A DNA stretch of 64,000 nt from an uncultured Bacteroidales bacterium (GTDB lineage Bacteria; Bacteroidota; Bacteroidia; Bacteroidales; Paludibacteraceae). This document shows positions 3,883-61,980 of this stretch, piece by piece. Location of the stretch: positions 1-64,000 of the forward strand of contig CADCBP010000016.1 of NCBI GenBank assembly GCA_902799705.1, written 5' to 3'. The translations under genes were made by a program, and so were the position numbers. The first letter of the stretch is position 1. The number at the start of each line of letters is the position of its first letter. Under the pieces are notes generated by a model. That model was not told the DNA's origin and searched no databases. It saw only the letters and a list, made by a program, of their open reading frames with translations.

Positions 3883-4080
3883 GGTTTAGGATTTAGGATT
3901 TAGGATTTAGGATTTAGGATTTAGGATTTAGGATTTAGGGTTTAGGATTTAGGGTTTAGGATTTAGGGTTTAGGATTTAGGGTTTAGGATTTAGGGTTTA
4001 GGATTTAGGATTTAGGGTTTAGGATTTAGGGTTTAGGATTTAGGGTTTAGGATTTAGGATTTAGGGTTTAGGATTTAGGG
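3883..4080. repeat. 28-unit heptamer array
   Basis: Twenty-eight uninterrupted 7-bp units, 18 GATTTAG and 10 GGTTTAG, largely alternating in the second half. It begins directly after the stop codon of the DUF4837 gene and ends inside the 3' end of pnuC on the opposite strand, encoding that protein's last residues. GGGTTTA resembles the plant telomere heptamer, but this is an internal bacterial locus. It is the longest member of the 7-bp array class found through the window. Confidence 0.98.
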
Positions 4081-4732
4081 ATTGCCAGCGTCTGAGACCG
4101 TAGAGGCAGTTCGCGCACCAGAAAACATATTGCGCGGCCATGCAGTAGTCTCCCGCCCGCAACCACAACACGACACTGAGTACGTCAATGGCAAGCCACA
4201 GGAACCAGTGCTCCCGATAAACAAGAATCATCAACACCTGCGCCACGAGTGCAGGTGTTGTCGTATAAGCATCCAGGTACGGCTGGGTGTCATCCGTCCA
4301 AGCGGCCAGCCCCCATCCTACCAAGGCAGAGACAGCGAGCGTCGCCGCCACGATAGTCACCACCACCGCCGGCGTGAGTGTCCGAGGCACTACTCTTCTC
4401 TCACTCTCTCCCTCATTCCTTAATCGCTTCCTCCACTCAAAAATCCCATACACCATCGTACCGAAATAGTACGCATTGATGGCAATCGTGCCGTAGAAAC
4501 GCTGGGTCCAACAGATATAGGTGAAAGTCAGCACCTGACCGAAACCGAAAGCGTAGGTCCAAATATTCCCTTGCGCCGCGAGGCACACGGAACAGACACC
4601 GAGACAGCCGCTGATAAGGGATAAAGGAGTCAGGGTATCAGGGTTCAGGGAATTAGTGATGAAGAACGTGACCACTTGTACCAGCAGTCCGAAAGCGATA
4701 AAACAGATATCAAAGATTTTACTGCGCGTCAT
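4061..4732 (-). CDS. pnuC: PnuC-family nicotinamide riboside transporter
   Basis: A 223-residue membrane protein with about seven hydrophobic segments, of the family that brings nicotinamide riboside (or related vitamins) into the cell for NAD synthesis. Family-like signatures are the W-rich segments near IFEW and the C-terminal YVFWCANCLYGLRRW. Two oddities appear. Residues about 27-37 are encoded by a short tandem array (4625-4653), and the last residues (SLNPKP) plus the stop codon are encoded by the heptamer array. The ATG at 4732 overlaps the preceding lipoprotein gene by 14 bp, suggesting coupled translation. Substrate is inferred from family only; thiamine cannot be excluded. Confidence 0.85.
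   Translation of the reverse strand: MTRSKIFDICFIAFGLLVQVVTFFITNSLNPDTLTPLSLISGCLGVCSVCLAAQGNIWTYAFGFGQVLTFTYICWTQRFYGTIAINAYYFGTMVYGIFEWRKRLRNEGESERRVVPRTLTPAVVVTIVAATLAVSALVGWGLAAWTDDTQPYLDAYTTTPALVAQVLMILVYREHWFLWLAIDVLSVVLWLRAGDYCMAAQYVFWCANCLYGLRRWQSLNPKP
4625..4653. repeat. In-frame 7/8-bp array inside pnuC
   Basis: Units AGGAGTC, AGGGTATC, AGGGTTC and AGGGAAT run head to tail within the coding region and encode, on the minus strand, the segment SLNPDTLTPL between two hydrophobic stretches. Confidence 0.6.
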
Positions 4733-6410
4733 AAGTCCATGTCTCCTCAAAGTCCCAATTGGACTTCGTCTGTATCTTCGTCGGGTTCGTATAGACTTTC
4801 TCCGGCTGACGTTTATCCTCCCAACTACCGGTAGTCCACTGTCCGTCGCCGTTCGAATCCCTGTACATCCGCAGGAAATACGCATCGGGTTTGAGATACC
4901 GGAAAAGCGCACCGTCCGGTTGAGCCGACTGTTCGCGCAGCACTTTTTCCTTTGCATTCAGCACCTGAATACGCATTTTCGGGTCGAAGGGATCTATGGT
5001 CACGCGGATGGTTGAATAGTCCTCCGGCGTCTTGAGCGTCAAGGGATACGAACCGGCAATGTGCGTCACGCCGTACACATCCTCCAGCGCCGCGCTGTCA
5101 AGGCTTAACTCGTACTTTCTGCCCGGCAGCAGTTGCGCGATGAACAGCAGTTGCATCGGCAGGCTGTCGTGCGTCTCAATCGTGAAAGGCACAGGATAGA
5201 CTGTTGTGTCCTTCTCCTTGCGTTCATACAGATGAATGGCCTCCTCGCGGATGAGTGCCAGCGGAGTGGCGGCTTCAAGACGCAGCGTATCGCATATGTC
5301 GAATCGCTTCGATGCATTGCTTTTCAGTCCAAGACGCCTGTTACGTCTCTGTCGTTCCTGCGCCTCGAGCGCCCTTGCCGACAATCGCGGAGCACGCCAA
5401 CGTGCCAATACCGTATCGGTAGCCCACTCCAAATGATACAAACTGTCCGTGCGACGGTAATGCACCTCGAAATACAGGGAGTCAGGACGCATAGAAGCAC
5501 TGTCCAGCAACCAGATCGTGACGGTATCATGACGCGGGGAAAAATACATGTTGTAGCGCAGACTGTCCGTGAGCGGACGGATGACCGGCAGGCTGTCCGG
5601 AGACGAAGAGAAGGCAAGACGTATCCGATGCTGTTCCTCCCGCGTGGTGCGCTGGAGGTACAGGCGTTGCTGCATGGGTTTGAACAAGTATAAGGTGTCG
5701 CTGTGAAGAAGACTGTCTGCTGCCGTCGTGTCAGGAGCCGTGACAGAAATCGTTCCCTCCGCAAATGCGATGGACTCTCCCGGTGTGAGACGATAGTCAC
5801 GACTCACATCATCGACGGCATACAGCCGGTAAGTCCCTGCATGCATGTTGCCTATCCGGTAGTGCCCCGTGGAGTCCGTGCGGGCAATGCGCAGGAAAGT
5901 CTTGGTAGTGAACGCCGTGTCCGAGAGATCCTCATGAATACCGACGATGATGCCTTTGAGCGGCTTCAGGTTCTCGGCGTCCAGCACTACGCCCGTGGTC
6001 TCCAGCGTGTCTATCGTCGGACCGGTAGAGAATCCGAAACAGTAGCCATGTACGGGGTTTTTCTCCGTGTAGTCACAGATGGCATCCCCGAAATCAATGG
6101 TATAGGTGGTGCTGTCACGCAGACTGTCCGCGAACTGTATCATCACGCGCTTGCCGCGCGCCTTGACATCAGGCGGACGCTGTTGCGGAGGAGACATCAG
6201 CAGGTTCGCGCTGACATTGTCCAACTGTACATATTCATTGAAAGTAATCTCGATGCGCCTGCCCGTGAAGTTCACGGCGCCGTTCTCCGGCACCGACTTG
6301 ACAGCCATCGGCGGGATAGAGTCTTTCGGTCCTCCCTGCGGTCCTACCCCGCGGTTCGCACACCCCGCCAACACCAAGGCCGTCAGCAGTATAGACAGGC
6401 TCTTGCGCAT
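4719..6410 (-). CDS. Ig-like (Big_5) domain lipoprotein
   Basis: A 563-residue exported protein. The signal peptide ends in lipobox VLAGC, so it is predicted to be lipid-anchored. It is followed by GPQGGPKDSIPP and a Big_5-type Ig-like domain (PENGAVNFTGRRIEITFNEY) typical of Bacteroidota surface lipoproteins. A carboxypeptidase-regulatory-like stretch (LKPLKGIIVGIHEDL...GHYRIGNMHAGTYRLYAVDD) follows around residues 145-215. No enzymatic motif is seen; a structural or assembly role in the envelope is inferred. It starts 6 bp after the pheS stop and overlaps pnuC, so the three genes probably form one transcript. Confidence 0.8.
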   Translation of the reverse strand: MRKSLSILLTALVLAGCANRGVGPQGGPKDSIPPMAVKSVPENGAVNFTGRRIEITFNEYVQLDNVSANLLMSPPQQRPPDVKARGKRVMIQFADSLRDSTTYTIDFGDAICDYTEKNPVHGYCFGFSTGPTIDTLETTGVVLDAENLKPLKGIIVGIHEDLSDTAFTTKTFLRIARTDSTGHYRIGNMHAGTYRLYAVDDVSRDYRLTPGESIAFAEGTISVTAPDTTAADSLLHSDTLYLFKPMQQRLYLQRTTREEQHRIRLAFSSSPDSLPVIRPLTDSLRYNMYFSPRHDTVTIWLLDSASMRPDSLYFEVHYRRTDSLYHLEWATDTVLARWRAPRLSARALEAQERQRRNRRLGLKSNASKRFDICDTLRLEAATPLALIREEAIHLYERKEKDTTVYPVPFTIETHDSLPMQLLFIAQLLPGRKYELSLDSAALEDVYGVTHIAGSYPLTLKTPEDYSTIRVTIDPFDPKMRIQVLNAKEKVLREQSAQPDGALFRYLKPDAYFLRMYRDSNGDGQWTTGSWEDKRQPEKVYTNPTKIQTKSNWDFEETWTYDAQ

Positions 6411-6416
6411 GCCGAT

Positions 6417-7457: not shown

Positions 7458-7460
7458 AAG

Positions 7461-7495
7461 ATCAATGATGATTGATGATTGCTAATTGATGATTT
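7461..7495. repeat. Heptad array in the pheS leader
   Basis: Five 7-bp units in register: ATCAATG, ATGATTG, ATGATTG, CTAATTG, ATGATTT. It lies directly upstream of the pheS start codon, so it would be part of the mRNA leader and displace any normal ribosome-binding site. Confidence 0.75.
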
Positions 7496-7510
7496 TTTAC
7501 AAAAATCGCT

Positions 7511-13640: not shown

Positions 13641-13666
13641 GGGCTGTTTTGCGGGGTGTTACAATT

Positions 13667-13716
13667 ATATCGGACTCATATCGGACTCATATCGGACTCA
13701 TATCGGACCTATATCG
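13667..13716. repeat. 11-bp tandem array in the nqr leader
   Basis: Three perfect units ATATCGGACTC, one variant ATATCGGACCT and a partial ATATCG, in exact 11-bp register. It lies between the nqrA promoter and start codon, so it would be transcribed. Confidence 0.9.
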
Positions 13717-16345: not shown

Positions 16346-17025
16346 AACTGAATACGAACAGTAATCTTTATACCTTCATCTATTCAGCGGTGATGGTAAT
16401 CATCGTAGCTGTGCTCTTGGCGGTGGTAAGCCAGGCACTCGCTCCGAAGCAGCAGGCGAATATCCTGCTCGACAAGCAGAAACAAATCCTCGGTGCGCTC
16501 AAGGTGGACTACTCCGCCGGTAACCCCGCAGAGATTTACATGGTGCTTGTCAACGACACGCTGACCTACGGAAACAAAGAAGTCTATGTAGCGAACCTCA
16601 ACGGCGAAACCAAATACATCCTGCCGCTCAGCGGTAAGGGTCTTTGGGGCGGCATCGGCGGTTACCTTGCGCTTGATGCGGACAAGAACACCGTCTATGG
16701 TGTCAACTTCAACCACGAGTCCGAGACTCCGGGTCTGGGTGCCAAGATTGTGGAACTGCCGTTCCGCGAGCAGTTTGAGGGCAAGCATATCCGCAACGCC
16801 GCAGGCGAAGTGGTGTCTATAGCAGTCCTCAAATCCGGCAAACATGCCGACGGACAGGAGCAGGTAGATGCCATCTCCGGTGCTACCATCACCTCCTCCG
16901 GCGTCAGCACCATGCTCGAAGTGAACCTCGCAGAGTACGAGGAGTTCCTCAAATGTGAAAATGAGAAAATGAGTAAATGTGAAAATGAAGGAAAGGAGGA
17001 AGACCATGTTGAGTCAGAAAACTAA
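16342..17025 (+). CDS. nqrC: Na+-NQR subunit C
   Basis: A 227-residue subunit with one N-terminal membrane helix (about 10-30) and a periplasmic FMN-binding domain. Thr182 in DAISGATITSSG is the predicted covalent FMN site. The conserved domain ends near residue 203. The remaining residues, 204-227, are a charged tail largely encoded by five 8-bp repeats (16951-16990). The last 20 bp overlap nqrD, whose ribosome-binding site lies inside this tail. The tail is therefore probably an add-on without a conserved role. Confidence 0.94.
   Translation: MKLNTNSNLYTFIYSAVMVIIVAVLLAVVSQALAPKQQANILLDKQKQILGALKVDYSAGNPAEIYMVLVNDTLTYGNKEVYVANLNGETKYILPLSGKGLWGGIGGYLALDADKNTVYGVNFNHESETPGLGAKIVELPFREQFEGKHIRNAAGEVVSIAVLKSGKHADGQEQVDAISGATITSSGVSTMLEVNLAEYEEFLKCENEKMSKCENEGKEEDHVESEN
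16951..16990. repeat. Octamer array forming the NqrC tail
   Basis: Five consecutive 8-bp units: AAATGTGA, AAATGAGA, AAATGAGT, AAATGTGA, AAATGAAG. They encode the C-terminal extension of NqrC and lead straight into the nqrD ribosome-binding site. Confidence 0.85.
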
Positions 17026-20049: not shown

Positions 20050-20703
20050 ATGAAAGATTCATTGATTGTTCTCTCCGGTGGACTCGATTCCACAACGATG
20101 TTATACGAATATCAGTTCCGTATCGGGATGGCACTATCATTCCATTACGGCAGCAACCATAACGACCGCGAGTTGGAGTTTGCCAAACTGCATTGCAAGC
20201 GTCTCGGTATCCCGCACATGGTTATTCGTTTGCCGTTTATCAAACAGTTTTTTCATTCCTCCTTATTGTCCGGCGCTGATGCTATACCAGAAGGAAACTA
20301 CGACGAAGAAAACATGAAATCAACCGTCGTTCCTTTCCGTAACGGTATCATGCTATCTATAGCCGCCGGCATAGCCGAGAACAACAAACTGCAATACGTC
20401 ATGCTGGCGAATCATTCCGGTGACCACACAATCTATCCAGACTGCCGTCCGGAATTCGTGGAGGCCATGAATAACGCCATCCATTTCGGAACATGGAACG
20501 GCGTGCAACTGCTCACTCCCTACACCCGTCTCACCAAAGCCGAGATTGCAGCGAAAGGCAAAGACCTGCACCTCGATTACGCCGAGACATGGAGTTGTTA
20601 CAAAGGAGGCCAACATCATTGTGGTGTCTGCGGCACATGTCGCGAACGCAAGGAAGCACTTGCTCAAGCCGGCATTGAGGATAACACTATCTATGATGCG
20701 TGA
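20050..20703 (+). CDS. queC: 7-cyano-7-deazaguanine synthase QueC
   Basis: An ATP-dependent enzyme (217 residues) that turns 7-carboxy-7-deazaguanine and ammonia into preQ0. The PP-loop SGGLDST is at residues 9-15, and the C-terminal zinc site uses the cysteines of SCYKGGQHHCGVCGTC. It is directly adjacent to queF, with no spacer. The TGA stop falls at the head of a heptad array (20700-20727). Confidence 0.96.
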   Translation: MKDSLIVLSGGLDSTTMLYEYQFRIGMALSFHYGSNHNDRELEFAKLHCKRLGIPHMVIRLPFIKQFFHSSLLSGADAIPEGNYDEENMKSTVVPFRNGIMLSIAAGIAENNKLQYVMLANHSGDHTIYPDCRPEFVEAMNNAIHFGTWNGVQLLTPYTRLTKAEIAAKGKDLHLDYAETWSCYKGGQHHCGVCGTCRERKEALAQAGIEDNTIYDA

Positions 20704-20727
20704 TGTGTAATATTTAATGTGTGATTT
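20700..20727. repeat. Heptad array between queC and queD
   Basis: Units GTGATGT, GTAATAT, TTAATGT and GTGATTT in 7-bp register. The first contains the queC stop codon; the last ends at the queD start codon. Confidence 0.7.
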
Positions 20728-21060
20728 ATGTATTACGTTCAAAAGACTATTGAGATTTCGGCAGCGCATAACTTGATGTTATCGTACGAAAGCAAATGTG
20801 AGAACCTGCACGGTCATAACTGGATCATCGTAGTCTATTGCCGCGCCAAGGAACTGAATGCTGATGGCATGGTCACGGACTTCACGCATATCAAACGTGT
20901 TGTCAAGGATACTTTCGACCATAAATACATCAACGATATCCTTGAGGTCAATCCTTCCGCAGAAAATATCGCCCGCTGGATATGTGACCACGTAGAGAAC
21001 TGCTATAAAGTCTCCGTTCAGGAATCCGAAGGCAACGTGGCAATCTACGAGAGGGATTAG
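20728..21060 (+). CDS. queD: 6-carboxytetrahydropterin synthase QueD
   Basis: A small T-fold enzyme (110 residues) that converts dihydroneopterin triphosphate to 6-carboxy-tetrahydropterin, the first dedicated step of queuosine synthesis. The zinc ligands are His14, His28 and His30, with catalytic Cys24 (SKCENLHGHNW). It is shorter than E. coli QueD (121) but complete. The GTP cyclohydrolase that feeds it is not in this window. It ends ERD-stop at the head of another short array. Confidence 0.95.
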   Translation: MYYVQKTIEISAAHNLMLSYESKCENLHGHNWIIVVYCRAKELNADGMVTDFTHIKRVVKDTFDHKYINDILEVNPSAENIARWICDHVENCYKVSVQESEGNVAIYERD

Positions 21061-21090
21061 AGGTTAAAGGTTAAGGTGTACAAGGTTAAT
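21053..21090. repeat. 7/8-bp array at the queD-queE junction
   Basis: Repeating TAGAGGT, TAAAGGT, TAAGGTGT, ACAAGGT. It supplies the queD stop codon, and the GTG start of queE lies inside it. The preceding 12 bases GAGAGGGATTAG are identical to those at the DUF4837 stop (3871-3882), where the long heptamer array begins. Confidence 0.6.
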
Positions 21091-24756: not shown

Positions 24757-25678
24757 TATTTTAGGATTCAGAATTCAGGATGCAGGATGCAGGACATTTT
24801 TGTCTTTGTTCCTTATTCTTTACTCCTTACTCTTCACGGGTTGTAACCCCGAAGCACCGTGGGTGGTTGACGATGTGACGATAGAGATGAGTGCGGAGAT
24901 TGTCTCAGCGGGATTCATCGAGTATAATTTCCATCCGAACAAAGATGCGTATTACCTCATCTCTTGTATGCCGGCAAACGAACTGGTCGATCCTTTCAAC
25001 CATTCCAAGCAATTCATGATTCTGGCACTCGACTCCGCCAACACCGCCTATATCCAATGGAGGAACGGGCTGCTCAGAGAGGGTGAGTTTAATATCGCGC
25101 CCTTCGCGAGCCATTGCCTCCAATACGGTCCTATCACGCATTTCTTCACGAACCTGACGCCCGACACCGACTACTGGGTCTTTGCCTTTGTGGTCAATCC
25201 CGAGACACTCAAACCCGTCGGAAAACTGTTCATCGAAACCGTGAAGACCACCGCCGAGAGTATCATGGACGTGCATTTCGATTACCGCGTGCGTGGCATA
25301 TGGGATTACATATATCCGCTTGATCCGGACAATAAGATCAACAGCAAACTGCCCTACCTCGCCTCTACAGTGGATAGTCTCAACCTCGCAGAAATATGGG
25401 GTGGCATCACGCCCGAAGACTATTTCAATAACCTTTTCACCACCATCTCCGAAAGCCATGATGAGTCGTCCATTCACTATGGCGTCACGGTGGTCAAGAA
25501 CGACGGTAGCGGAACGAGTATACCCTTCGAAGTCAATCATACCTACTACACCGCCATCGTCAGCTATGACGGTTTCATGGGCAATAATGTCATCTATCGC
25601 TTCCATTGGACGGGCGATGACTACGAGGCCTATTTCACGGATGAAAATAACATTGCTATTTACAGGGAAGACGAGTGA
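24746..25678 (+). CDS. Lipoprotein of unknown function
   Basis: A 310-residue protein with a predicted lipid-anchored cysteine at the end of LLFTGC. The body resembles a fibronectin-like pair of domains (ITHFFTNLTPDTDYWVFAFVVNPET), but no enzymatic motif is seen. Most of the signal peptide is encoded by two heptad arrays (24763-24797 and 24811-24838), so the export signal seems to have been rebuilt from repeat DNA. It is preceded by a good AAAGGAG site and overlaps both the hydrolase gene and rlmH, suggesting one transcript. Its role may be linked to the hydrolase. Confidence 0.7.
   Translation: MKNNILGFRIQDAGCRTFLSLFLILYSLLFTGCNPEAPWVVDDVTIEMSAEIVSAGFIEYNFHPNKDAYYLISCMPANELVDPFNHSKQFMILALDSANTAYIQWRNGLLREGEFNIAPFASHCLQYGPITHFFTNLTPDTDYWVFAFVVNPETLKPVGKLFIETVKTTAESIMDVHFDYRVRGIWDYIYPLDPDNKINSKLPYLASTVDSLNLAEIWGGITPEDYFNNLFTTISESHDESSIHYGVTVVKNDGSGTSIPFEVNHTYYTAIVSYDGFMGNNVIYRFHWTGDDYEAYFTDENNIAIYREDE
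24763..24838. repeat. Two heptad arrays within a signal peptide
   Basis: First array, five units: AGGATTC, AGAATTC, AGGATGC, AGGATGC, AGGACAT (24763-24797). Second, four units: CCTTATT, CTTTACT, CCTTACT, CTTCACG (24811-24838). Both are in frame and encode the h-region of a lipoprotein signal. Confidence 0.75.
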
Positions 25679-34885: not shown

Positions 34886-35616
34886 AACTGCGGGTATTTA
34901 CGGAACCAGGATGAGATTTTGAGGCGAAGGACGCCGAGTAGTGCTTCGGAGAAGATGCCACCGGACATCTTGGAAGTACCGAGTACGCGATTTACGAATA
35001 TAATCGGCACCTCGATGATTTTCGCCCCGCATTTGGAAGCGGTGAACTTCATCTCGATCTGGAAGGCATAACCTTTGAATCGGATTTTATCGAGTTCGAT
35101 GGTCTCGAGCAGATGACGCTTGTAGCATACAAAACCGGCGGTGGTGTCATGGATATTGACACCGAGTACTGTGCGCACATATTTAGAAGCGAAATAGGAC
35201 ATGAGCACGCGTCCCATGGGCCAGTTGACTACATTGACTCCTGTGACGTAACGGCTGCCTATAGCGAGATCTGCTCCTTCATTAGCGCAGGCATCATAGA
35301 GTTTGAGAAGATCTTGCGGGTTATGGCTGAAATCGGCGTCCATCTCGAAGATATAATCGGCTTTATGCTCGATAGCCCACTTGAAGCCGGCGATATAAGC
35401 GGTTCCGAGTCCCTGTTTGCCTTCACGTTCGACGAGGAACAGGCGGTCTTTGTACTTACCGGCCATGAGACCTTTTACGATGGAGGCTGTGCCATCCGGC
35501 GAACTGTCATCAATAATCAGCACATTGAAATCTAACGGCAGATTCATGACTGCCGTGATGATGGCTTCGATGTTCTCTTTCTCGTTGTACGTAGGAATGA
35601 TTACAAGGCGTTGCAT
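34882..35616 (-). CDS. Polyprenol-phosphate mannosyltransferase-like GT2
   Basis: A family 2 glycosyltransferase of 244 residues that resembles dolichol/polyprenol-phosphate mannose synthases without a membrane anchor. Markers: VIIPTYNEKENI, IDDSSPDGT, the metal-binding DADFSHNP and IGSRYVTG, plus HDTTAGFVCYKR. It would load a sugar from a nucleotide donor onto a lipid carrier on the cytoplasmic face for later envelope glycosylation; donor and acceptor are inferred from family. Upstream lies a heptad array that separates it from the MBL gene. Confidence 0.88.
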   Translation of the reverse strand: MQRLVIIPTYNEKENIEAIITAVMNLPLDFNVLIIDDSSPDGTASIVKGLMAGKYKDRLFLVEREGKQGLGTAYIAGFKWAIEHKADYIFEMDADFSHNPQDLLKLYDACANEGADLAIGSRYVTGVNVVNWPMGRVLMSYFASKYVRTVLGVNIHDTTAGFVCYKRHLLETIELDKIRFKGYAFQIEMKFTASKCGAKIIEVPIIFVNRVLGTSKMSGGIFSEALLGVLRLKISSWFRKYPQL

Positions 35617-35649
35617 TGGAGATTGGAGATTTGAGATTTTAGATTTGTA
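35615..35649. repeat. Heptad array between MBL and glycosyltransferase genes
   Basis: Five units: ATTGGAG, ATTGGAG, ATTTGAG, ATTTTAG, ATTTGTA. On the minus strand it contains the stop codon and last residues of the MBL protein and reaches the start codon of the glycosyltransferase gene. Confidence 0.8.
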
Positions 35650-37855: not shown

Positions 37856-37860
37856 GCTTT

Positions 37861-37895
37861 TACACATTAAACATTACACATCATACATTACAGTG
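37861..37895. repeat. Heptad array at the end of infB
   Basis: Five units: TACACAT, TAAACAT, TACACAT, CATACAT, TACAGTG. The infB stop codon lies in the last units, and the array fills the gap to the next gene. Confidence 0.8.
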
Positions 37896-41912: not shown

Positions 41913-42108
41913 TTTTGCTTATATTGTTTAGTTTTTTCGACTAAGGATTAAGAACCGCTTCGCTAAAAGAGTAAAGATTTGTTACTATCAGTCGAGTCAT
42001 TTTTGTCTTTTGTCCTTTGGTGTTTGTCCAATGCCCGTTCCTGCCGGATACTATCGACTAATGCATTTTGTCTTTTGTCCTTTGTCCTATAGCGTAGCGG
42101 TCTTTATT
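41913..42108. repeat. Spacer nusA-rimP with two heptad arrays
   Basis: Array one at 42001-42028: TTTTGTC, TTTTGTC, CTTTGGT, GTTTGTC. Array two at 42066-42086: TTTTGTC, TTTTGTC, CTTTGTC. Between them are CAGTCGAG and CTATCGACT segments that are partly complementary. No gene is visible, so the operon is interrupted by a repeat-filled spacer. Confidence 0.75.
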
Positions 42109-43616: not shown

Positions 43617-43726
43617 CCACCACTCTTCCACTACTCAGCCACTACTCTTCCACTACTACGCCACTACTTTTCCACTAAGGCGCAAAGGGTGCTCAATGGG
43701 TGCTGAAAGGGTGCTCAAAGGCTCCT
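43617..43726. repeat. Ten-unit 11-bp tandem array
   Basis: 110 bp in exact 11-bp register with two unit types. Units 1-5 follow CCACTACT plus three variable bases (for example CCACTACTCAG, CCACTACTCTT, CCACTACTACG), unit 6 is the transition CCACTAAGGCG, and units 7-10 follow CAAAGGGTGCT. The phase does not change at the switch. The array lies between divergent promoters. Confidence 0.92.
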
Positions 43727-43846
43727 CCGCCCCAAATCGCCCAACCCTCACTCCATTATACTTCCAAAATCTATTCCTTTACGGCTTTTTTTACCGCGTC
43801 TGAACAACGTAATGAAAAGCAAAAAATCGTAAAAAATACGTGCGCG

Positions 43847-43879
43847 CTTGTGTATGTCAAAAAAAAGTTGTACCTTTGC
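43847..43879 (+). promoter_or_regulatory. mfd promoter
   Basis: CTTG at 43847-43850, a 20-nt spacer and TACCTTTGC at 43871-43879; leader about 24 nt to the GTG at 43909. Confidence 0.75.
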
Positions 43880-43908
43880 AGCCGATTTTAAAGTGCCTTA
43901 CTGCGCGC

Positions 43909-46900
43909 GTGAATATAGAAGACTTGAAAATACTGTTTGGGCAACATCCGGAACTGGCGGCAGTCAGGAAGGAGTTGGCGCACCGTGACGCACATGTGTT
44001 ATTAAGCGGATTACACGCTTCTACTCGCGCGCTGGCGCTTGCACACTTGCAAAAACCGCTGTTTGTGATCTTTGACAACGCAGAAAATGCACAATACCTC
44101 TACGCGGATTTGAAAGCCGTTGGAGCGGATACCATGTTCTTCCCTGCCGCGAAACGCAGACGCACTATCGACGATGCGGCGACCATACTTCGCACGGAGA
44201 CTCTGACTGCGCTCGCCACAGACAAAGTGCAGATTGTAGTCACATACCCCGAAGCCATCGCGGAACCCGTGCCGGCGAAAGAAGAGTTGTCGGCAGTCAG
44301 CATGACGCTGAAGGTGGGACAGGAAATACAGCAATCGGAACTCGGCAAGCAGCTGTCCGAACTCGGGTTTGAACACGTGGACTTTGTGTTCCAGCCCGGA
44401 CAATACGCAATACGTGGCTCGATTGTCGATATCTACAGTTTCGGCCATGACATTCCTTACCGGTTTGACTTCTTCGGCGACGAGATTGACAGTATCCGTG
44501 AATTCGATATCGAAGACCAGTTGTCCAAGTCCCGTGTCGAGAGTGCGGAGATTGTAGGAGGAAGCCAAGAGTCAAAAGCCGAAAGCCAAGAGTCCACTGT
44601 TGTGGATTATCTGACGGAGGATTTTGTGTGGGTGAGCAACGATTGGGGAATGGCGAAGTTTAAGGCTGAGGGGCTGATTAATCCGAGTATTCTGAATAAT
44701 CTGAATAATCGAAAGACTATTGAAATAGCGGAGAAGAGTTCATTTGACACACATAGCAAGATTTCATTCGACACCATCCCCCAACCGGTCTTCCATAAAC
44801 AGTTCGACATCTTGACGGAAGACCTTCGCAAGCACATCAATAACGGCTATAAAATTTATATCTTAGCCGGGCAAACGAAGCAATTGGACCGACTCAAAGC
44901 AATCTTCGAGGCACAAGATGCCTCCATCTCGTTTACAGGCATCAACGCTACGTTGCACGAGGGTTTTGTGGATCACGGGCTGAAAATATGTTGCTACACC
45001 GACCATCAGATCTTCGAGCGTTTCCATCGCGTGACGATGAGTAGCGAGAACGCACGGCGTGGCAAAGCCATCATCACCCTGCGTGAGATCAACCAGTTAC
45101 AGATCGGGGACTACGTAGTGCACAGCGATCACGGTATTGCGAAATTCGGCGGGTTGGTGACTACCCCTGTCAACGGCAAGCCGCAGGAAATGATCAAGTT
45201 GATCTACCGCGACGGGGCGAATGTGTTTGTGAGCATCCATAACTTGCACCGAATCAGCAAGTACAAAGGTCGCGAAGGTTCTGAACCGACGATCGCACGA
45301 TTAGGTTCGGGCGCTTGGGAAAGACTCAAGGAGCGCACCAAGGACAAAGTGAAAGACATAGCGCGGGACTTGATCAGACTCTATGCCACGCGCAAACAGC
45401 AGAAAGGATTCGCCTACTCGCCCGACGGATACATGCAGCACGAACTGGAGGCTTCTTTCCTCTACGAAGATACCCCCGACCAAGCGAAAGCAACAGCAGA
45501 CGTAAAACGCGACCTGGAGAGCCCGATGCCCATGGACCGGCTGGTTTGCGGAGACGTAGGATTCGGAAAGACCGAAGTGGCAATGCGTGCGGCATTCAAA
45601 GTCGCTACGGACGGCAAACAGGTAGCAGTCCTCGTCCCGACGACCGTCTTGGCTCTGCAGCATTACAATACCTTCCGCGAGCGAATGCAGAACATGCCCG
45701 TACGTATTGAATATCTGAGCCGGCTCAAAAGCGAAAAAGAGACGAAAGCGCTGTTGGCGGAACTGGAGGCCGGCAAAATAGATATACTCATCGGCACGCA
45801 CAAAATCATCGGGAAAAGTGTCAAATGGCACGACCTGGGATTGCTGATCATCGATGAGGAACAGAAATTCGGCGTAGCAGCCAAAGAGAGATTAAAGAGT
45901 CTGCGCACGAACATTGATGTATTGACCTTGACGGCTACGCCGATCCCGAGAACCCTGCAGTTCTCCTTGTTAGGCGCACGCGATCTGAGTGTGATGACCA
46001 CCCCGCCGCAGAACCGCTATCCCGTTCAAACAGAACTGATCACCCTGGACGACGAAGATATCATCAAAGAAGCGATTGATTTGGAAATGGCTCGCAACGG
46101 ACAGGTGTTCATCGTCAACAACCGCATTGAGATGTTACCGCGTATCGAACGGCGCATACAGAAGTTATGCCCTGAAGCACGCATCGTTGTGGCACACGGA
46201 CAGTTACCCGCCGGAGAGATGGAGGAACGACTCGAGGCGTTCATCAATTACGATTATGACATTCTGCTCTCGACGACGATCATCGAGTCGGGCGTGGACA
46301 TACCGAACGTGAACACTATACTCATCTTCTCGGCAGACAAATACGGTTTGGCGGACCTGCACCAGTTACGCGGGCGCGTAGGCCGCAGCAACCGGAAAGC
46401 GTACTGCTACCTCGTTGCACCCGATAAGGAGTTACTGACCGAAGATGCAAGACGGCGACTCGAGGCGCTGAGCACGTTCTCCGAATTAGGCGCAGGATTC
46501 AGCCTGGCGATGCAGGACCTCGATATACGCGGCGCAGGAAACATGTTAGGCTCCGAGCAATCGGGCTTTATAGCCGACCTCGGATACGAGACCTACCAAC
46601 GCATCCTAAACGAAGCGATCGAAGAACTCCGCGAAGAAGAAGGACTCGGCTCCGATGAGAACCAAATGGTAAATGGTAAATGTCCAAATGAGAAAATGAC
46701 TTGGTGCTCCGACAGCCAACTGGAGACAGATTTGCCGGTTTGTTTTCCGACGGAATATATCGAAAACATATCGGAGCGAATCACCTTATACAGGGAATTG
46801 GACAGCCTGCACAGCGAAGAACAGTTGCTGGACTTCCGCAAACGGCTCATCGACCGGTTCGGAGCGCTGCCGGAAAGCGCAGAGGAATTATTGGATGTCG

Positions 46901-47927: not shown

Positions 47928-47962
47928 ACTGATTACTGATCACTGATCACTGAATACTGACA
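47928..47962. repeat. Heptad array after kdsB
   Basis: Five units: ACTGATT, ACTGATC, ACTGATC, ACTGAAT, ACTGACA. The first begins one base after the kdsB stop codon. Confidence 0.85.
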
Positions 47963-52871: not shown

Positions 52872-52903
52872 GTTAAAATGTTAACGTGTTAAACTGTTAA
52901 ACC
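52872..52903. repeat. Octamer array between LytTR gene and rlmN
   Basis: Four units: GTTAAAAT, GTTAACGT, GTTAAACT, GTTAAACC. On the minus strand the rlmN stop codon and last residues lie inside the array. An AACATTTT/AAAATGTT hairpin (52862-52882) overlaps its start. Confidence 0.8.
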
Positions 52904-53982
52904 GTCAAGGAATTGACGAGCATGCCGCAGGCGGCAAGGATATCTTCGCCACGGGAGCGACGGATAGTTGTTGTCAGACCGTGCTCGGTCAAGTAATCCC
53001 GCAAGAACTCCATCTGTTTCTCATCGGACGCCGGAAAACGGCGTTCGTTTTTTATATCCTCCACTCCGGCATGGAAGCGTATCAGGTTGATGCGGCAGGG
53101 CAGTCCTTTGAGCAAGCGTAGCAGTTCCTTGGCATGGCGCATGGTGTCGTTCTGTCCCGCCCAGCATATATACTCGAAGCTGATACGGCGTTGATGGGAG
53201 AAATCGTATTGCTTGAGAAGGTTCACCACCTCGGTGATGGAGAACATTTTCTCTGCGGGCATGATCTGCGCCCGCTCCACCGCAAAGGGGTTGTGCATAG
53301 AGACGGCTATATGACAGTCACTCTCGTCCAGGAATCGCTTCATGGCGGGAATGCCTACCGTAGAGACAGTGATACGTTTAGGCGACCATCCGCAGCCGTA
53401 GGGCGCCGTCATGATTTCCAGGGCACGCAGCACATTATCGAGGTTGTCCATCGGTTCGCCCTCGCCCATGAAGACAAGATTGGAGACACCCCCCCTCTCC
53501 CTCTCAGAGGGGGAGAGAGAAGACGCAATAGCGTCTATTTCGAAGATCTGATTGAGGATCTCTGCCGCGGAGAGATTGCCGTGAAAACCGAGTGTGCCGG
53601 TCATGCAGAACTTACATCCCATCTTACACCCTGCCTGCGTGGACACACAGAGCGTAGCCCTGTCCTCTTCGGGGATATAGACCGTTTCTACAAAACAGGA
53701 CGGGTGATTGGAGATTGGAGATGGGAGATGGGAGACTTCGAACAGGTACTTGCGTGTTCCGTCGGCACTGACTGCTTCTTTGACCGGGGCATGCCGACCG
53801 ATGGTATAGTGCGCCTTGAGGGCTTCACGCCCTTTGAGGGAGATATTCGTCATCTCTTCAAAGGAACGCACGCGACGGACGTAGAGCCACTCCGCGAGTT
53901 GTTTCCCCGCGAACTTTTGCAGGCCGACGCTCAACGCCACCTCCTGCAGTTCCGCCAATGTCTTTCCTAAGAGCACCTCCAT
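52897..53982 (-). CDS. rlmN: Dual-specificity RNA methyltransferase RlmN
   Basis: A 361-residue radical-SAM enzyme that methylates C2 of A2503 in 23S rRNA and A37 in some tRNAs. The iron-sulfur cysteines are Cys119, Cys123 and Cys126 (CKMGCKFCMTG); FMGEGEPMDN and the C-terminal methyl-accepting Cys region (CGMLV) are present. Two in-frame inserts are repeat-encoded: about residues 84-95 (heptads at 53706-53740) and about 152-166 (palindrome at 53488-53521). Both lie in loops between conserved blocks. It overlaps the mscS-like gene by one base. Confidence 0.95.
   Translation of the reverse strand: MEVLLGKTLAELQEVALSVGLQKFAGKQLAEWLYVRRVRSFEEMTNISLKGREALKAHYTIGRHAPVKEAVSADGTRKYLFEVSHLPSPISNHPSCFVETVYIPEEDRATLCVSTQAGCKMGCKFCMTGTLGFHGNLSAAEILNQIFEIDAIASSLSPSERERGGVSNLVFMGEGEPMDNLDNVLRALEIMTAPYGCGWSPKRITVSTVGIPAMKRFLDESDCHIAVSMHNPFAVERAQIMPAEKMFSITEVVNLLKQYDFSHQRRISFEYICWAGQNDTMRHAKELLRLLKGLPCRINLIRFHAGVEDIKNERRFPASDEKQMEFLRDYLTEHGLTTTIRRSRGEDILAACGMLVNSLTV
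53488..53521. repeat. Palindromic CTCTCCC insert in rlmN
   Basis: Arms CCCCCCTCTC and GAGGGGGAGAG, of the same class as the insert in rimP; encodes SSLSPSERERGG in frame. Confidence 0.7.
53706..53740. repeat. In-frame heptad array in rlmN
   Basis: Five units: GATTGGA, GATTGGA, GATGGGA, GATGGGA, GACTTCG. Encodes SHLPSPISNHP on the minus strand. Confidence 0.8.
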
Positions 53983-54997: not shown

Positions 54998-55450
54998 TTA
55001 TCGAATTCTATCGGCTGCACGGACGAGCGCCTCATCTTTGAGGATCCGGCGTGTAGCCATGAGGGTTAAGACAAAGCACACAAGCGGGAACGACGCCCAA
55101 GGAAGCACATGCCAGTCCACGCCCAAAGCCAACTTCGCCTGCCATACATAAATAGCCAGCACGCCGTAATATCCCAGGCATAGCATAGCGAGGAAGATAT
55201 TGAGACGGGCCTGCAGGATACGTTTCTTATAGAGGAAGATATCTATCAGCGCCAGAAGGGGGATTAACGCCGTAGTAACCAGCAAGCCCCAAAGGCCTTG
55301 CAGCGGTACGCCACCGAGGGCACTCAGTTCGAAGATTTGCAGTTCCGCTGCCTCTTCAGGCGTCACCAGTTGTAACACCGGCAAAAAAATCAGCGCGATG
55401 CCTAAAGCCACGATGGCCAGTAAATAAAGTGTCTGAATTCGTTGTATCAT
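54998..55450 (-). CDS. DUF4293 membrane protein
   Basis: A 150-residue integral membrane protein with four hydrophobic segments, matching the Bacteroidota-specific DUF4293 family by its opening MIQRIQTLYLLAIVALGIAL and the central IDIFLYKKRILQARLNIF. No function is assigned. Immediately upstream lies a 7/8-bp array (55446-55495). Confidence 0.85.
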   Translation of the reverse strand: MIQRIQTLYLLAIVALGIALIFLPVLQLVTPEEAAELQIFELSALGGVPLQGLWGLLVTTALIPLLALIDIFLYKKRILQARLNIFLAMLCLGYYGVLAIYVWQAKLALGVDWHVLPWASFPLVCFVLTLMATRRILKDEALVRAADRIR

Positions 55451-55495
55451 AAAGTCATTTACAATTTGGTCATTTACGATTTACCATTTAATCTT
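55446..55495. repeat. 7/8-bp array between the acyltransferase and DUF4293 genes
   Basis: Repeating CATTTAC, AATTTGGT, CATTTAC, GATTTAC, CATTTAA. On the minus strand it contains the acyltransferase stop codon and reaches the DUF4293 start. Confidence 0.65.
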
Positions 55496-57486: not shown

Positions 57487-58632
57487 ATATCCTTCTGCTA
57501 TCCGGCGGGCGTCGGCGTCGGTAGCCACGTAATCTTCGTAGGTGGGTTTGGCGATGAACGCAGCTTGGTTCATTGTCTCGCGGATGATGTCGCTCATTTG
57601 TAGGAAGCCGCAACGCCCTTCGCGGAAAGCGAGGTTAGCCACTTCATTGGCGGCATTGAGTACGCAGGGAATGTTGCCTCCTCTGCGCATGGCTTCGTAC
57701 GCCAGTCCTAAGTTCGGGAAGCGCTTCAGGTCGGGTTGCTCGAAGGTGAGATCTTTGAGTGCGAACAGGTCGGCACGGGGGAAGTCACTGGCGAGGCGTT
57801 CGGGGAACGAGAGGGCGTATTGTATCGGCAGACGCATGTCCGGCGCGCCGAGTTGCGCCTTGATGGCGCCGTCGGTGAACTGCACAGCGGAATGAACGAT
57901 GGACTGCGGGTGGACGAGCACTTGGATCTTCTCCACCGGCACGCCGAAGAGCCACTTGGCCTCGATGACTTCAAAGCCCTTGTTCATCATGCTCGCCGAG
58001 TCGATGGTGATCTTCGCGCCCATGTCCCAGTTGGGGTGCTTGAGAGCATCGGCGGCTGTGACGGTCGCCATCTGTTCCAGGCTGTACGTGCGGAAGGGTC
58101 CGCCGCTGGCGGTGAGCAGGATTTTCTCTATCTCACTGCGGTCTTCACCTACGAGGCTCTGGAAGATCGCGGAGTGTTCGCTATCGACCGGCAGGATGGA
58201 TGCATGGTGCCGGGAAGCGAGTTCACATATAATCTCTCCTGCCACGACGAGGGTCTCTTTGTTGGCGAGGGCGATGGTCTTACCGGCTTTGATAGCTTCA
58301 ATGGTCGGACGCAGTCCGGCGTAACCTACCATCGCGGCTACCACGATGTCGATACTCGGCATCGTCACCACCTCGGCGATAGAATCCGGGCCCGCCCATA
58401 TCTTGCCTTCAAAACCGATGGCAGCCAACTGGCGGTTGAGTTCTCCGTACAGACTCTCGTCGGCAATGCACACCACTTCGGGATGAAACTCCTGCGCCTG
58501 CCGTACCAACAGCTCGATACTCCGGTGCGCGCAAAGAGCGTACACGCTATACCTGTCCGGATAAGCACGCACGACGTCTAATGTCTGCGTACCGATACTA
58601 CCAGTGCTACCTAAAATCGCTAACTCCTTCAT
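57469..58632 (-). CDS. dxr: 1-deoxy-D-xylulose-5-phosphate reductoisomerase
   Basis: A 387-residue NADPH enzyme that makes 2-C-methyl-erythritol 4-phosphate in isoprenoid synthesis. The nucleotide site is LGSTGSIGTQTLDV; the metal and substrate blocks LANKETLVVAGE, PVDSEHSAIFQ and LTASGGPFR are intact, and HPNWDMGAKITIDSASMMNKGFEVIEA follows. The ATG lies inside an 8-bp array (58630-58653), leaving GA-rich repeat in place of a normal ribosome-binding site. Confidence 0.96.
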   Translation of the reverse strand: MKELAILGSTGSIGTQTLDVVRAYPDRYSVYALCAHRSIELLVRQAQEFHPEVVCIADESLYGELNRQLAAIGFEGKIWAGPDSIAEVVTMPSIDIVVAAMVGYAGLRPTIEAIKAGKTIALANKETLVVAGEIICELASRHHASILPVDSEHSAIFQSLVGEDRSEIEKILLTASGGPFRTYSLEQMATVTAADALKHPNWDMGAKITIDSASMMNKGFEVIEAKWLFGVPVEKIQVLVHPQSIVHSAVQFTDGAIKAQLGAPDMRLPIQYALSFPERLASDFPRADLFALKDLTFEQPDLKRFPNLGLAYEAMRRGGNIPCVLNAANEVANLAFREGRCGFLQMSDIIRETMNQAAFIAKPTYEDYVATDADARRIAEGYLSLNS

Positions 58633-58653
58633 TCTTTCATTCTTTCACTCTTT
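58630..58653. repeat. Octamer array at the dxr start
   Basis: Units CATTCTTT, CATTCTTT, CACTCTTT. On the minus strand it reads AAAGAATG repeatedly, and the last ATG is the dxr start codon. Confidence 0.75.
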
Positions 58654-58655
58654 AC

Positions 58656-59468: not shown

Positions 59469-59474
59469 TAGTTC

Positions 59475-59506
59475 GAATTACGGGATTACGTAATTACGGA
59501 ATTACG
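59475..59506. repeat. Octamer array between fumarase and M23-like genes
   Basis: Four units: GAATTACG, GGATTACG, TAATTACG, GAATTACG. The fumarase stop codon lies in the last unit on the minus strand. Confidence 0.85.
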
Positions 59507-61178
59507 AAAGTATCGTGCAACCGGTGCAGGGCTTGAGCTGCTTGAAGAAGTCATTGCCCTTGTCATCGACGAGGATGAACGCGGGGAAGTTCTCCACTTC
59601 GATTTTCCATATAGCCTCCATGCCCAGTTCGGGGTACTCGACGCACTCGATGGACTTGATATTGTTCTGCGCGAGGATAGCTGCGGGACCGCCGATAGAG
59701 CCGAGATAGAAGCCGCCGTGTTTCTGACACGCGTTGGTGACGTCAATCGAGCGGTTACCTTTGGCGAGCATGATGAGCGAGCCGCCGTGGTCCTGGAACT
59801 CATCTACGTACGGATCCATACGTCCGGCCGTGGTCGGTCCCATCGAACCGCATGCCATGCCTGCAGGAGTCTTTGCCGGACCGGCGTAGTAGATCGGATG
59901 GTTCTTGAGGTACTCCGGCATCGGTTCGCCGGCATCGAGACGCGCTTTGATCTTCGCATGCGCTATGTCACGGCCTACGATGATGGTGCCGTTGAGGCTC
60001 AGACGCGTACCGATCGGGTACTTCGTCAGGATGGCGCAAACGTCCTTCATCGGCTGGTTGAGGTCGATACGTACCGCATCGCCCTCGCCTGCCTGACGCA
60101 GTTCTTCGGGAATGAGGGAAGCAGGGTTGTTATCCAGTTTCTCAATCCATATACCGTCTTTATTGATCTTACATTTGATGTTTCGGTCAGCAGAGCAGCT
60201 CACGCCGAGACCTATCGGGCAGGAAGCGCCGTGACGGGGCAGACGAATGACGCGCACGTCATGCGCCATGTACTTACCGCCGAACTGTGCACCGAGACCG
60301 ATCTTGTAGGCCTCTTGCAGCAGTTGTTTCTCCAACTCTATATCACGGAAAGCACGTCCGGTCTCGTCGCCGGTCGTCGGCAGCGAGTCGTAATAATGGG
60401 TGGAAGCGAGCTTGACGGTCAGCAGGTTCTTCTCCGCACTCGTACCACCGATGACGATGGCGATGTGATACGGAGGACAAGCCGCCGTACCGAGCGATTT
60501 CATCTTCTCCACGAGGAAGGGGATGAGCGTACCCGGGTTCTGGATGCGCGCCTTGGTCTCCTGATAGAGATAGGTTTTGTTCGCGCTACCGCCACCCTTC
60601 GTCACGCACAGGAAACGGTACTCCATGCCGTGCGTAGCCTCGATGTCGATCTGCGCCGGCAGGTTGCATCTGGTGTTCACCTCGTCGTACATGTTGAGCG
60701 GCGCGTTCTGGCTGTACCGCAGGTTGCACTCGGTGTAGGTATTGAACACCCCGCGCGAGAGAGCCTCTTCGTCGGACACTTCGCATTTTTGTCCATTGTC
60801 CATTGTCCATTGTCCTTTTGTCCACACCTGCTGTCCTTTCTCGCCGTGGATGATAGCGGTGCCGGTATCCTGGCAGAGCGGCAGTTGTCCTTTGCATGCC
60901 ACTTCGGCATTGCGCAGGAAAGTGAGCGCTACGTATTTGTCATTGGCAGACGCCTCCGGGTCACGCAGGATCTTTGCTACCTGCTCGTTATGCGAGCGGC
61001 GCAGCATGAAGCTCACGTCATGGAACGCTTGTTGTGCCATGAGGGTCAGTGCCTCCGGTTCGACTTTCAAGATCTCATGTCCTTCAAAATTGCCGACCGA
61101 CACATGGTCTTTGGTCAGCAGATAATACTCCGTTTCATCTTTCCCGAGTTGAAACATCGGTGCATACTTAAATTCCAT
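59502..61178 (-). CDS. fumA: Class I fumarate hydratase
   Basis: A 558-residue 4Fe-4S fumarase that interconverts fumarate and malate. The first cluster ligand is Cys102 in PLCQDTGTA; later ones are expected in TAACPPYH and the [10 protein letters not shown] region. The C-terminal block [22 protein letters not shown] is typical. Residues about 121-133 ([13 protein letters not shown]) are encoded by a heptad array and break an otherwise conserved segment (GQQVWT ahead, SDEEALSRG after). ATG at 61178 chosen since the frame upstream is promoter. Confidence 0.95.
60789..60824. repeat. In-frame heptad array in fumarase
   Basis: Units TTGTCCA three times, TTGTCCT, then TTTGTCCA. On the minus strand they encode [10 protein letters not shown]. 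The array is in a stretch that is ungapped in ordinary fumarases. Confidence 0.85.
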
Positions 61179-61217
61179 AGTATTTGTGTATTTTTTATTA
61201 GCCCATAAAATGCGGCT

Positions 61218-61250
61218 GCAAAAGTACAACAAAAATTGCACATACGCAAA
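61218..61250 (-). promoter_or_regulatory. Fumarase promoter
   Basis: TTTG (61250-61247), a 20-nt spacer and TACTTTTGC (61226-61218) on the minus strand. Confidence 0.75.
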
Positions 61251-61400
61251 TAAAAATGGTTTTTTTAGAGAAAAAATAGAATTTATTCTATTATTTTATG
61301 CCCACGGACTTCTTTGGATGCTTGCATACGGAAGAGGTCTGCGGGCATAAAGTGAGGGTTTTAACCCTTTTCTCAAAAAAAAACCATTTTTATTTGCATA
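61246..61400. repeat. Foldback element with about 30-bp inverted ends
   Basis: The left end, GCAAATAAAAATGG followed by T run and AGAGAAAA, is the near-complement of the right end at 61366-61400. The interior contains an ATGCCC/GGGCAT pair and a GGGTTTTAACCC palindrome. It resembles a small non-autonomous element, but no target duplication is seen. Confidence 0.55.
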
Positions 61401-61460
61401 TATCCCGCAGAACGCGAACGTACTTTCGGTGGGTCCCGCGTGCGGGAGGACCGAAGTTAC
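61378..61460. repeat. 83-bp dispersed repeat, copy 2
   Basis: Inverted relative to copy 1 at 450-532. The hairpin core has the same arms CCCGC/GCGGG and CGGT/ACCG with changes mainly in the loop. Confidence 0.8.
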
Positions 61461-61748
61461 ACCTTTCTCTCCCCCTTCAGGGGGCATGGGGGCCTTATTT
61501 TTGTTATTTTTGTAAGGGAAACGCCCGCATTTTTGTAAGCATTCAACGTGCTGCTATTAAGCAGCGAGTTGGGAGTGTAGGCTTTTACGAGCGCTGCAAG
61601 CTTGCTTGTGAGCGCTTGTAGCGGACGTAAATGCGCATTTTTGATTACACATAAGAAAGGGCGACCCCGAAAGGCTAAAGGTTATAGGCGAAAGGGCTTA
61701 TTTATTAAATCAAAAAATTTAGGGGGGGCTGGAGGGCTTCTCTTACAC

Positions 61749-61783
61749 GCGGCTCTGCCGCATAAACAGCAAGCTCTGCTTGC
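61749..61783. repeat. Two constant-loop (TCT) hairpins
   Basis: GCGGC-TCT-GCCGC (61749-61761) and GCAAGC-TCT-GCTTGC (61769-61783) are perfect hairpins with different arms and the same three-base loop, joined by ATAAACA, the spacer also found after the hairpins at 72-152. Confidence 0.75.
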
Positions 61784-61863
61784 GCTACACGTGTCAAAGG
61801 CGCTCTACACAGCGTCAGCGGCGTGTTTCATAACGTCCTTTTTTTCAACAAGTTGCAAAATAG

Positions 61864-61907
61864 ATATCGGAGGCATCTCAGAGGCATCTCGGAGGCAACT
61901 CGGAGGC
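61864..61907. repeat. 11-bp tandem array
   Basis: Four units: ATATCGGAGGC, ATCTCAGAGGC, ATCTCGGAGGC, AACTCGGAGGC. The first eight bases of the first unit equal those of the nqr leader array unit (ATATCGGA). Confidence 0.85.
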
Positions 61908-61948
61908 AACCCCTACTCAAACGTATCCTTTCCCCCCCTTAGCCCTTT

Positions 61949-61980
61949 CACTCTTTCATTCTTTCATTCTTTCATTCTTT
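61949..61980. repeat. Octamer array before the TPM gene terminator
   Basis: CACTCTTT, then CATTCTTT three times. The same units occur at the dxr start (58630-58653). Confidence 0.8.

Follow-up and report, generated by a model that had tools for sequence, protein, structure and literature searches.

Short heptanucleotide arrays with many units and fast turnover in the genome of an uncultured Paludibacteraceae bacterium

The stretch analysed here, called the window below, comprises positions 1 to 64,000 of contig 16 (CADCBP010000016.1) of the draft genome of an uncultured Bacteroidales bacterium of the Paludibacteraceae (GCA_902799705.1; 45 contigs, 2.33 Mb). It has a GC fraction of 0.51 and carries, among other genes, the run fum-M23-dxr-rseP-hexapeptide-DUF4293-MscS-rlmN-LytTR, whose order is conserved in close relatives, with some exceptions and contig ends. 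Judged by the dxr protein, the nearest named organisms are uncultured members of the Bacteroidales and Paludibacteraceae, several of them from ruminants, and searches for RNA families at the gathering score and for tRNAs found none in the window. Between and within the genes lie short tandem arrays with units of seven or eight base pairs (Table 1). The sites stay fixed while their arrays come and go or change to another unit, and identical units recur across the genome and the genus far above chance.

Excess of the seven-base period

A sequence-only reading had listed 23 such sites in the window, and the arrays exist: Tandem Repeats Finder (TRF; score of at least 30) returns an array of period 7, 8 or, counted with these, a multiple at 21 of them, missing 20700 and 44563, both of which are visible only as degenerate copies, and a stricter lag test (12 of 14 positions identical) recovers 16. 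The array that had been put at about 28 units holds 28.7 copies by TRF (3879-4079) and extends over 3874-4079 by the lag test. For the main test, clusters were defined by at least 14 identities in 16 positions at a fixed lag, with order-3 Markov simulations (20 for the window) as the null. The window gave 21 clusters at lag 7, as against none in each of the 20 simulations, and five as against none at lag 8; lags 3, 5, 10 and 13 gave none, lags 4 and 6 one each, lag 9 four and lag 11 six. Twenty further 20-kb stretches of the genome, 400 kb in all, yielded 41 clusters at lag 7, 18 at lag 8 and 17 at lag 11, with one at lag 5, two each at lags 9 and 10 and none at lags 6 and 13, where one simulated 400 kb gave 0 or 1 at each lag compared.

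Across the resulting sample of 464 kb, seven-base tandem units exceed chance and are over-represented in non-coding DNA, with 33 lag-7 clusters in 84 kb of non-coding sequence (0.1 expected) and 16 in 380 kb of coding sequence (0 expected). The autocorrelation check proposed in the earlier reading, split into coding and non-coding DNA, thus finds an excess at lag 7 in both classes, and that reading's idea of a process generating or maintaining the period gains support as a period-specific process at work across the sampled genome. Exact two-copy duplications in non-coding DNA likewise peak at lag 7 (50 vs 7.0 expected), with lag 5 at expectation (8 vs 7.5) and lag 6 raised about twofold (14 vs 7.2). 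The sample contains 104 arrays with a median of 3.9 copies.

The excess of lag-7 clusters is also present in 20 related loci. A wider set of 60 dxr loci (1.10 Mb; most from Bacteroidales, with Pontibacter and Roseivirga also represented) gave 72, 53, 38 and 15 clusters at lags 7, 14, 21 and 28, and 0, 5, 7 and 12 at lags 5, 6, 8 and 9, the signal being uneven among the loci. A 50-kb control from Escherichia coli K-12 gave no clusters at lags 4-14.

Placement and turnover at fixed sites

The arrays occupy places that tolerate extra DNA, above all the stretch directly after a stop codon when the next gene runs in the same direction, but also gene ends and loops of conserved enzymes. Genes were called with a simple codon-score caller that missed some (e.g., 36476-37867), so the following counts are approximate. 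Among same-strand gaps of 15-120 nt, 42 of 94 hold a 7/8-bp array, compared with 0.93 in simulated gaps; 43 of the 69 same-strand intergenic arrays start at most 10 nt past the stop codon of the preceding gene, the median distance being 3 nt, and for 29 the end lies no more than 15 nt from the next start. Where both neighbours of an intergenic array were called (n = 74), 70 arrays lie between genes on the same strand, four between convergent genes and none between divergent genes, yet divergent gaps make up 15.2 of the 77.0 kb of gap DNA in the sample. Relatives do have arrays in divergent gaps, 8 of 84 in the genus loci and 4 of 117 in the others. The sequence-only reading, right about the arrays themselves, had noted neither this position behind stop codons, nor the turnover at the same sites, nor the in-frame insertions in enzyme loops.

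Such insertions keep the reading frame: the 15 arrays called coding allow 27 length comparisons with two relatives, G061 and G062, and every difference is a multiple of three, four of them being zero. In the fumarase loop, the window has a GGACAAT array and is 36 nt longer than G061 and G062, both of which have no array there, and in locus L033 the corresponding position is occupied by a CGAAAGT array. The words in the loop of the RlmN-like gene are CTCCAAT in the window and L030, TCAAATT-like in L045, AAGGTAC-like in L042 and others elsewhere; here G062 is 21 nt (three units) longer than the window and G061 has no array. At one place in dxr a seven-base pattern is present with little change in length, and arrays can thus also replace existing coding sequence.

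The two relatives, which share 86.4% (G061) and 87.1% (G062) nucleotide identity with the window and 93.4% with each other, were compared where they match the window and the stretches L010, L015 and L022. The comparison covered 44 arrays. Four (42066, 46664, 61943 and L022 2638) were dropped, and the remaining 40 had a position in one or both relatives, with 38 comparable in G061 and 38 in G062. Units with at most two mismatches counted as the same, and the class without array takes in degenerate arrays below a 10-of-12 threshold, as at 35615 and 47928. Against G061, 24 of the 38 arrays have no counterpart array, five have another unit, five the same unit at another length, and four keep both unit and length; the corresponding figures for G062 are 19, six, eight and five. 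The comparison of sites among related genomes that the sequence-only reading had called for thus leaves only 4 and 5 of 38 arrays with unit and length kept, and turnover is fast at 86-87% nucleotide identity. Between G061 and G062 themselves, 36 sites divide into 16 with an array in neither, nine with an array in one only, one with another unit, six with the same unit at another length and four unchanged. The six length changes are +7, +21, +24, +40, -12 and +9; several arrays therefore differ by whole units between close relatives, as expected from slipped-strand replication.

Eight junctions of the conserved gene run were followed in up to 21 genomes. Fewer than 16 nt separate the genes in 64 instances, 51 instances hold a 7/8-bp array, 26 longer ones hold none (four of these have another lag), and three are rearranged or too distant; among syntenic spacers of at least 16 nt, 51 of 77 are thus 7/8-bp arrays, with differing units. 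The gap between dxr and rseP carries different words by species, or is missing where the two genes overlap or abut. In L033 the hexapeptide-DUF4293-MscS block shares 91-96% protein identity with the window, compared with 77-80% for the neighbouring rseP and RlmN, and a 40-nt array in a junction of this block is identical to that of the window, which together hint at recombination between species.

Table 1. Tandem arrays of the window, with their state in the relatives G061 and G062
Unit	Position	Strand	Place	State in relatives
TTAGGAT/TTAGGGT, about 28 copies	3874..4079		between convergent 3' ends of DUF4837 gene and NMN-transporter-family gene	about 4-5 copies of TTTAGAG/TTTAGTG
TCAGGGTA, short, 7/8 bp	4630..4650			similar length and sequence in G061 and G062
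TGATGAT	7460..7494		just upstream of start of phenylalanyl-tRNA-synthetase-family gene (minus strand)	array kept in both
AAATGAGA, 8 bp	16951..16988		near 3' end of FMN_bind gene, just before Rnf-Nqr subunit gene	absent from both
GTGATGT-like, degenerate	20700..20735		between QueC-family and PTPS-family genes	7-mers clearer in G062
TTAAAGG	21053..21089		before radical-SAM gene	8-mer AATTAGAG, lengths 8 nt apart between G061 and G062
AGGATGC and TCCTTAC, two 7-bp stretches	24763..24832	+	N-terminal end (signal-peptide-like by eye) of open reading frame 24746-25678	another 7-mer in G061, none in G062
ATTGGAG/ATTTGAG	35615..35647	-	fills gap between metallo-beta-lactamase-superfamily and glycosyltransferase genes	degenerate counterparts visible by eye, classed as no array
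TTACACA	37860..37892	-	3' end of IF-2 gene	near-identical in G062, left half differs in G061
TTTTGTC/TTTGTCC, two arrays	42001..42090			
AGCCAAG-type, degenerate	44563..44600	+	inside TRCF (Mfd) gene; no TRF call	
AAATGGT	46664..46700	+	inside TRCF gene; unit recurs elsewhere in sample	unit recurs in relatives
ACTGATC	47928..47960	+	begins right after stop codon of cytidylyltransferase-family gene	degenerate counterparts visible by eye, classed as no array
GTTAAACT, 8 bp	52872..52908		between convergent LytTR and RlmN-like genes	GTTAA-containing 8-mer, about 9 units in G061, about 14 in G062
GATTGGA/GATGGGA	53703..53735	-	in loop of RlmN-like gene	
AAATGGT/AAATGAC, mixed 7/8 bp	55446..55490	-	fills hexapeptide-transferase/DUF4293 junction	other words in G061
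AATTAAA	57444..57486	-	fills dxr/M50-peptidase (rseP-like) junction	other words or no spacer
CTTTCATT, 8 bp	58623..58653	-	M23/dxr junction, reaching into dxr start codon	
GAATTACG, 8 bp, 4 units	59475..59509	-	fumarase/M23 junction	1 unit in G061, another word in G062
TTGTCCA	60789..60824	-	in fumarase loop	
CTTTCACT/CTTTCATT, 8 bp	61943..61991			

Several other repeats were met alongside. Arrays of period 11 form a separate class (window 13663-13716, 43622-43723 and 61864-61912; L009 18188, L012 8185, L021 13866, L023 1226 and 6501), with 19 non-coding and two coding clusters in the 464-kb sample and recurring families such as TTGACCGTCGG and GGAGGCAATTC; unlike the 7/8-bp arrays, some of them sit between divergent genes (5 of the 24 whose two neighbours were both called). 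Very long 8-bp arrays of the AAAGAATG/AAAGAGTG family at L009 18232-18636 (about 50 units) and L016 16758-16909 (about 19 units) are candidate hypervariable loci. Short C/G-rich palindromic elements of the CCCTCCCTnnnAGGGAAGGG or CCCCCTCTGAGAGGGGG type (L175 6769, L176 3944, L010 6439, L042 7881, L029 15131) occupy gene positions that hold a 7-bp array in the genome under study or a relative, e.g., the fumarase loop (L042) and the L010 9786 site; a pattern related to them shows no excess in the window (one match vs 2.67 expected). A conserved sequence, AAAAAAGTTGTACCTTTGCAGC, at window 43855-43888 and many other places in the genome resembles the promoter type of Bacteroidetes, and a putative dispersed element at 43840-43900 was set aside because its first genome matches are a promoter-like sequence, not copies of an array.

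Unit vocabulary and the origin of the arrays

The 104 arrays use 68 distinct units, the two commonest occurring in seven arrays each, and no one or few heptamers dominate the genome in the manner of the short tandemly repeated repetitive sequences of cyanobacteria. Half of the arrays (52) nevertheless use a unit that is found unchanged in a second array, either 3 kb or more away or on a different stretch, where 6.4 would be expected from shuffled units and 7.8 from GC-matched intergenic words. The view that each site has its own, mostly unrelated unit therefore holds as far as the number of distinct units goes and fails for the 52 arrays whose unit recurs exactly elsewhere. Among 18 arrays for which the available relatives have no array, hand-picked and in two cases with only one relative for comparison, six share an identical unit elsewhere (0.75 expected). 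In equal samples, the fraction of arrays that find an identical unit among 60 others is 0.40 within the genome, 0.35 in the genus (a figure that takes in some orthologous arrays), 0.15 in other loci and 0.05-0.06 for shuffled units. Near-identical units are also commoner within than between the 60 other loci (0.222 vs 0.072; 0 of 500 permutations), and the vocabulary is largely genus-specific. The sharing of 7-mer units by arrays less than 2 kb apart (0.35 of 17 pairs vs 0.10 for far pairs) is suggestive. In composition the units are A+T-rich (GC about 0.3), with AA or TT in 97% of the 7-mers of the genome against 85% after shuffling; among 112 same-strand intergenic 7-mers from own, genus and other loci, TAT is avoided (3 vs 32) and both TGA (34 vs 18) and TCA (30 vs 17) are enriched. 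The 8-mer units show a strand bias: two of them agree to within one mismatch with a frequency of 0.105 on the same strand and 0.006 on opposite strands.

We lean, with a little more confidence than doubt, toward heptanucleotide arrays that slippage by whole units maintains and that are probably seeded anew, at tolerant sites, from a common vocabulary. New arrays would mostly be seeded from arrays elsewhere, through template switching or patch copying between arrays; once seeded, they would grow and shrink by slippage and decay through point mutation, and selection would purge those that break frames or promoters. The step of seven might be set by the footprint of the polymerase, as has been proposed in print, or by a size of loop that mismatch repair fails to remove. 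Changes in length by whole units fit slippage, and a limited, largely genus-level vocabulary, together with the negative seed test described below, suggests that new arrays mostly did not grow from the local flank. The sequence-only reading had set aside the copying of one element because units are mostly unrelated; with half of the arrays using a recurring unit and the vocabulary shared within the genus, copying from other arrays becomes a leading candidate and the explanation we prefer, a shared sequence preference being its main alternative. A bolder version, possible but doubtful, treats the arrays as a mobile repeat population without proteins. Words of seven and eight bases, common to the genus, would spread by copying between arrays anywhere on the chromosome and would thereby write and overwrite the spacers of operons and those coding segments that tolerate it (enzyme loops, signal peptides); the copying machinery, rather than the word, would fix the step length.

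Several observations weigh against slippage with re-seeding as just described. No donor-recipient pair was caught, and alignments of the window, G061 and G062 show indels mostly of 1-3 bp without a peak at 7 bp, the indels being few and the arrays pooled with other DNA; within these limits the alignments show no general bias toward 7-bp indels, and they do not catch the birth step of the arrays. Two of the six length changes between G061 and G062 (-12, +9) are not whole units, and some sites, such as 59475, look locally grown. The shared words may reflect a common preference for A+T-rich sequence that avoids TAT and favours TGA and TCA, some units being shared across genera (own vs other loci, 0.15). 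Among genus loci, near-identical units are not significantly commoner within than between species (0.124 vs 0.090, p = 0.09), and sharing between nearby arrays (100-5000 nt) is weak (permutation p = 0.06 for 7-mers and 0.34 for 8-mers). Exact duplications in coding DNA are raised at lag 6 (56 vs 24.3) beside lag 7 (36 vs 17.0), and in 400 kb from five near-closed genomes belonging to the same class lag 7 does not stand out (four clusters each at lags 7, 9 and 10, six at lag 4). These last two results limit the reach of the claim, not its core, and the class-level genomes indicate that the strong form of the process is restricted to some lineages.

A purely local origin, with each array grown by slippage from a seven- or eight-base word at a gene end and the recurrence of units due to common stop- and start-codon contexts, strikes us as rather unlikely, convincing as its examples are by eye. 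The site at 59475 has one copy of GAATTACG in G061 and four in the window, 16951 looks alike, the dxr start ATGAAAGA appears repeated upstream, and the strand bias of the 8-mer units points the same way. The formal test was negative: the units of 50 arrays match the orthologous spacer-free flanks no better than those of other junctions (0.7565 vs 0.758, permutation p = 0.58), with power limited by a background that matches about 75% of a unit. Moreover, identical units recur far beyond GC-matched intergenic words, and the array at L022 13780 (33 nt), absent from both relatives, has no full copy in their flanks, where a partial TGGTT-like match can be seen by eye. Still less probable is a selected function, whether as binding sites with a seven-nucleotide pitch for the ribosome, cold-shock proteins or other factors, as backup stops in all frames, or as tuners of translational coupling. 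The placement of arrays behind stop codons and before starts would suit it, and MacGregor (2015; PMC4679880) put forward a translational role. Sense-strand stops are modestly raised in the 112 units (0.759 vs 0.615 shuffled, the maximum of 200 shuffles being 0.759) and antisense stops are at background (0.536 vs 0.546). However, the enrichment extends to TGA and TCA alike, so that the bias is for the most part common to both strands, and three-frame stop codons were for this reason rejected as the main driver; the same junctions have fewer than 16 nt between genes in 64 instances, and arrays also lie in enzyme loops and between convergent genes.

The sharpness of the period could recall a reverse transcriptase or telomerase-like enzyme copying a seven-nucleotide template, and the TTTAGGG-like unit at 3874 resembles a plant telomere repeat. 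We hold this to be very improbable, given that 68 units in 104 arrays would require as many templates and that a search for RVT_1 reverse transcriptases gave no match at E <= 0.001 in this genome (94% complete). An assembly artefact or chance, which a draft in 45 contigs and close relatives known from metagenome assemblies might bring to mind, has a negligible claim: simulations of the window give no lag-7 clusters, arrays 55446 and 37860 are nearly unchanged in the separately assembled G062, and length differences inside genes keep the frame. Loss of mismatch repair was rejected as a cause, two frames with MutS domains being present (888 and 782 aa; by their lengths probably MutS1- and MutS2-like). 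The genome contains one match to a Y-family polymerase.

Relation to known heptamer repeats

The sequence-only reading took the heptanucleotide repeats of cyanobacteria as its precedent, which is fair, and knew of no description for Bacteroidales, which is too strong: TAACTGA heptamer repeats, with other heptamer repeats beside some of them, are reported from five Bacteroidetes including Paludibacter propionicigenes (MacGregor, 2015; PMC4679880). TAACTGA repeats are known from Beggiatoaceae, Cyanobacteria and Bacteroidetes, with 169 sets in a Beggiatoaceae genome, and close relatives with shorter, repeat-free spacers have been noted (PMC4679880). The arrays described here resemble them in being seven-base repeats near start codons, some within genes, with shorter spacers in relatives, and differ in having 68 units in 104 arrays instead of one dominant unit; exact TAACTGA doublets number zero in own, genus and other loci.

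The GGGNATC repeats of Xanthomonas and Nostoc are intergenic, lie between aligned genes near stop codons, and are rarer between divergent genes (Rehm, 2015; PMC4692102). Our arrays share all of these features of position, but their units are A+T-rich and, in a given relative, no more than 4-5 of 38 are unchanged in both unit and length. GGGNATC doublets are absent, and the G-rich doublet GGGGAYT occurs zero times in own, once in genus and zero times in other loci. The phase-variable heptanucleotide tracts of hmw1A (PMC8262952) and neuO (PMC13001214), in which expression is tied to copy number and, for neuO, slippage is named, also consist of seven-base units that vary in copy number; those are long tracts at single variable genes, whereas here there are mostly 3-5 degenerate copies, often at housekeeping genes. 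Degenerate seven-base repeats of varying copy number are likewise known from Calothrix (as cited in PMC4692102) and from the tRNA-Leu intron of Nostoc (PMC3488679), both from a different phylum, with three units reported for Calothrix. Among long simple sequence repeats, heptanucleotides were the most abundant class in most genomes, and slippage was proposed (Mrazek et al., 2007, cited in PMC4679880 and PMC4692102). The listings of our searches, confined to open-licence PubMed Central papers, turned up neither a vocabulary of many units nor replacement at the same site.

The genus has many species whose gene order is well conserved, and each genome holds many independent arrays that turn over fast. 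The origin, expansion, replacement and loss of arrays can therefore be followed at one site, and these genomes suit the question of how such repeats arise and spread. To our knowledge, why seven-base repeats dominate in many bacteria has stayed open since the 2007 survey. If the vocabulary is truly copied between arrays, this would be a route to spacer DNA and new peptide segments that requires no mobile-element proteins; in practical terms, close relatives come to differ through such arrays in their gene ends, their N-termini and the spacing within operons. The arrays belong to the known heptanucleotide kind, with its Bacteroidetes precedent, and the phenomenon itself is not new; what differs from the repeats of Mrazek et al. 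(2007) is that short, degenerate arrays of many units fill much of the operon spacer DNA and turn over at the same sites in close relatives.

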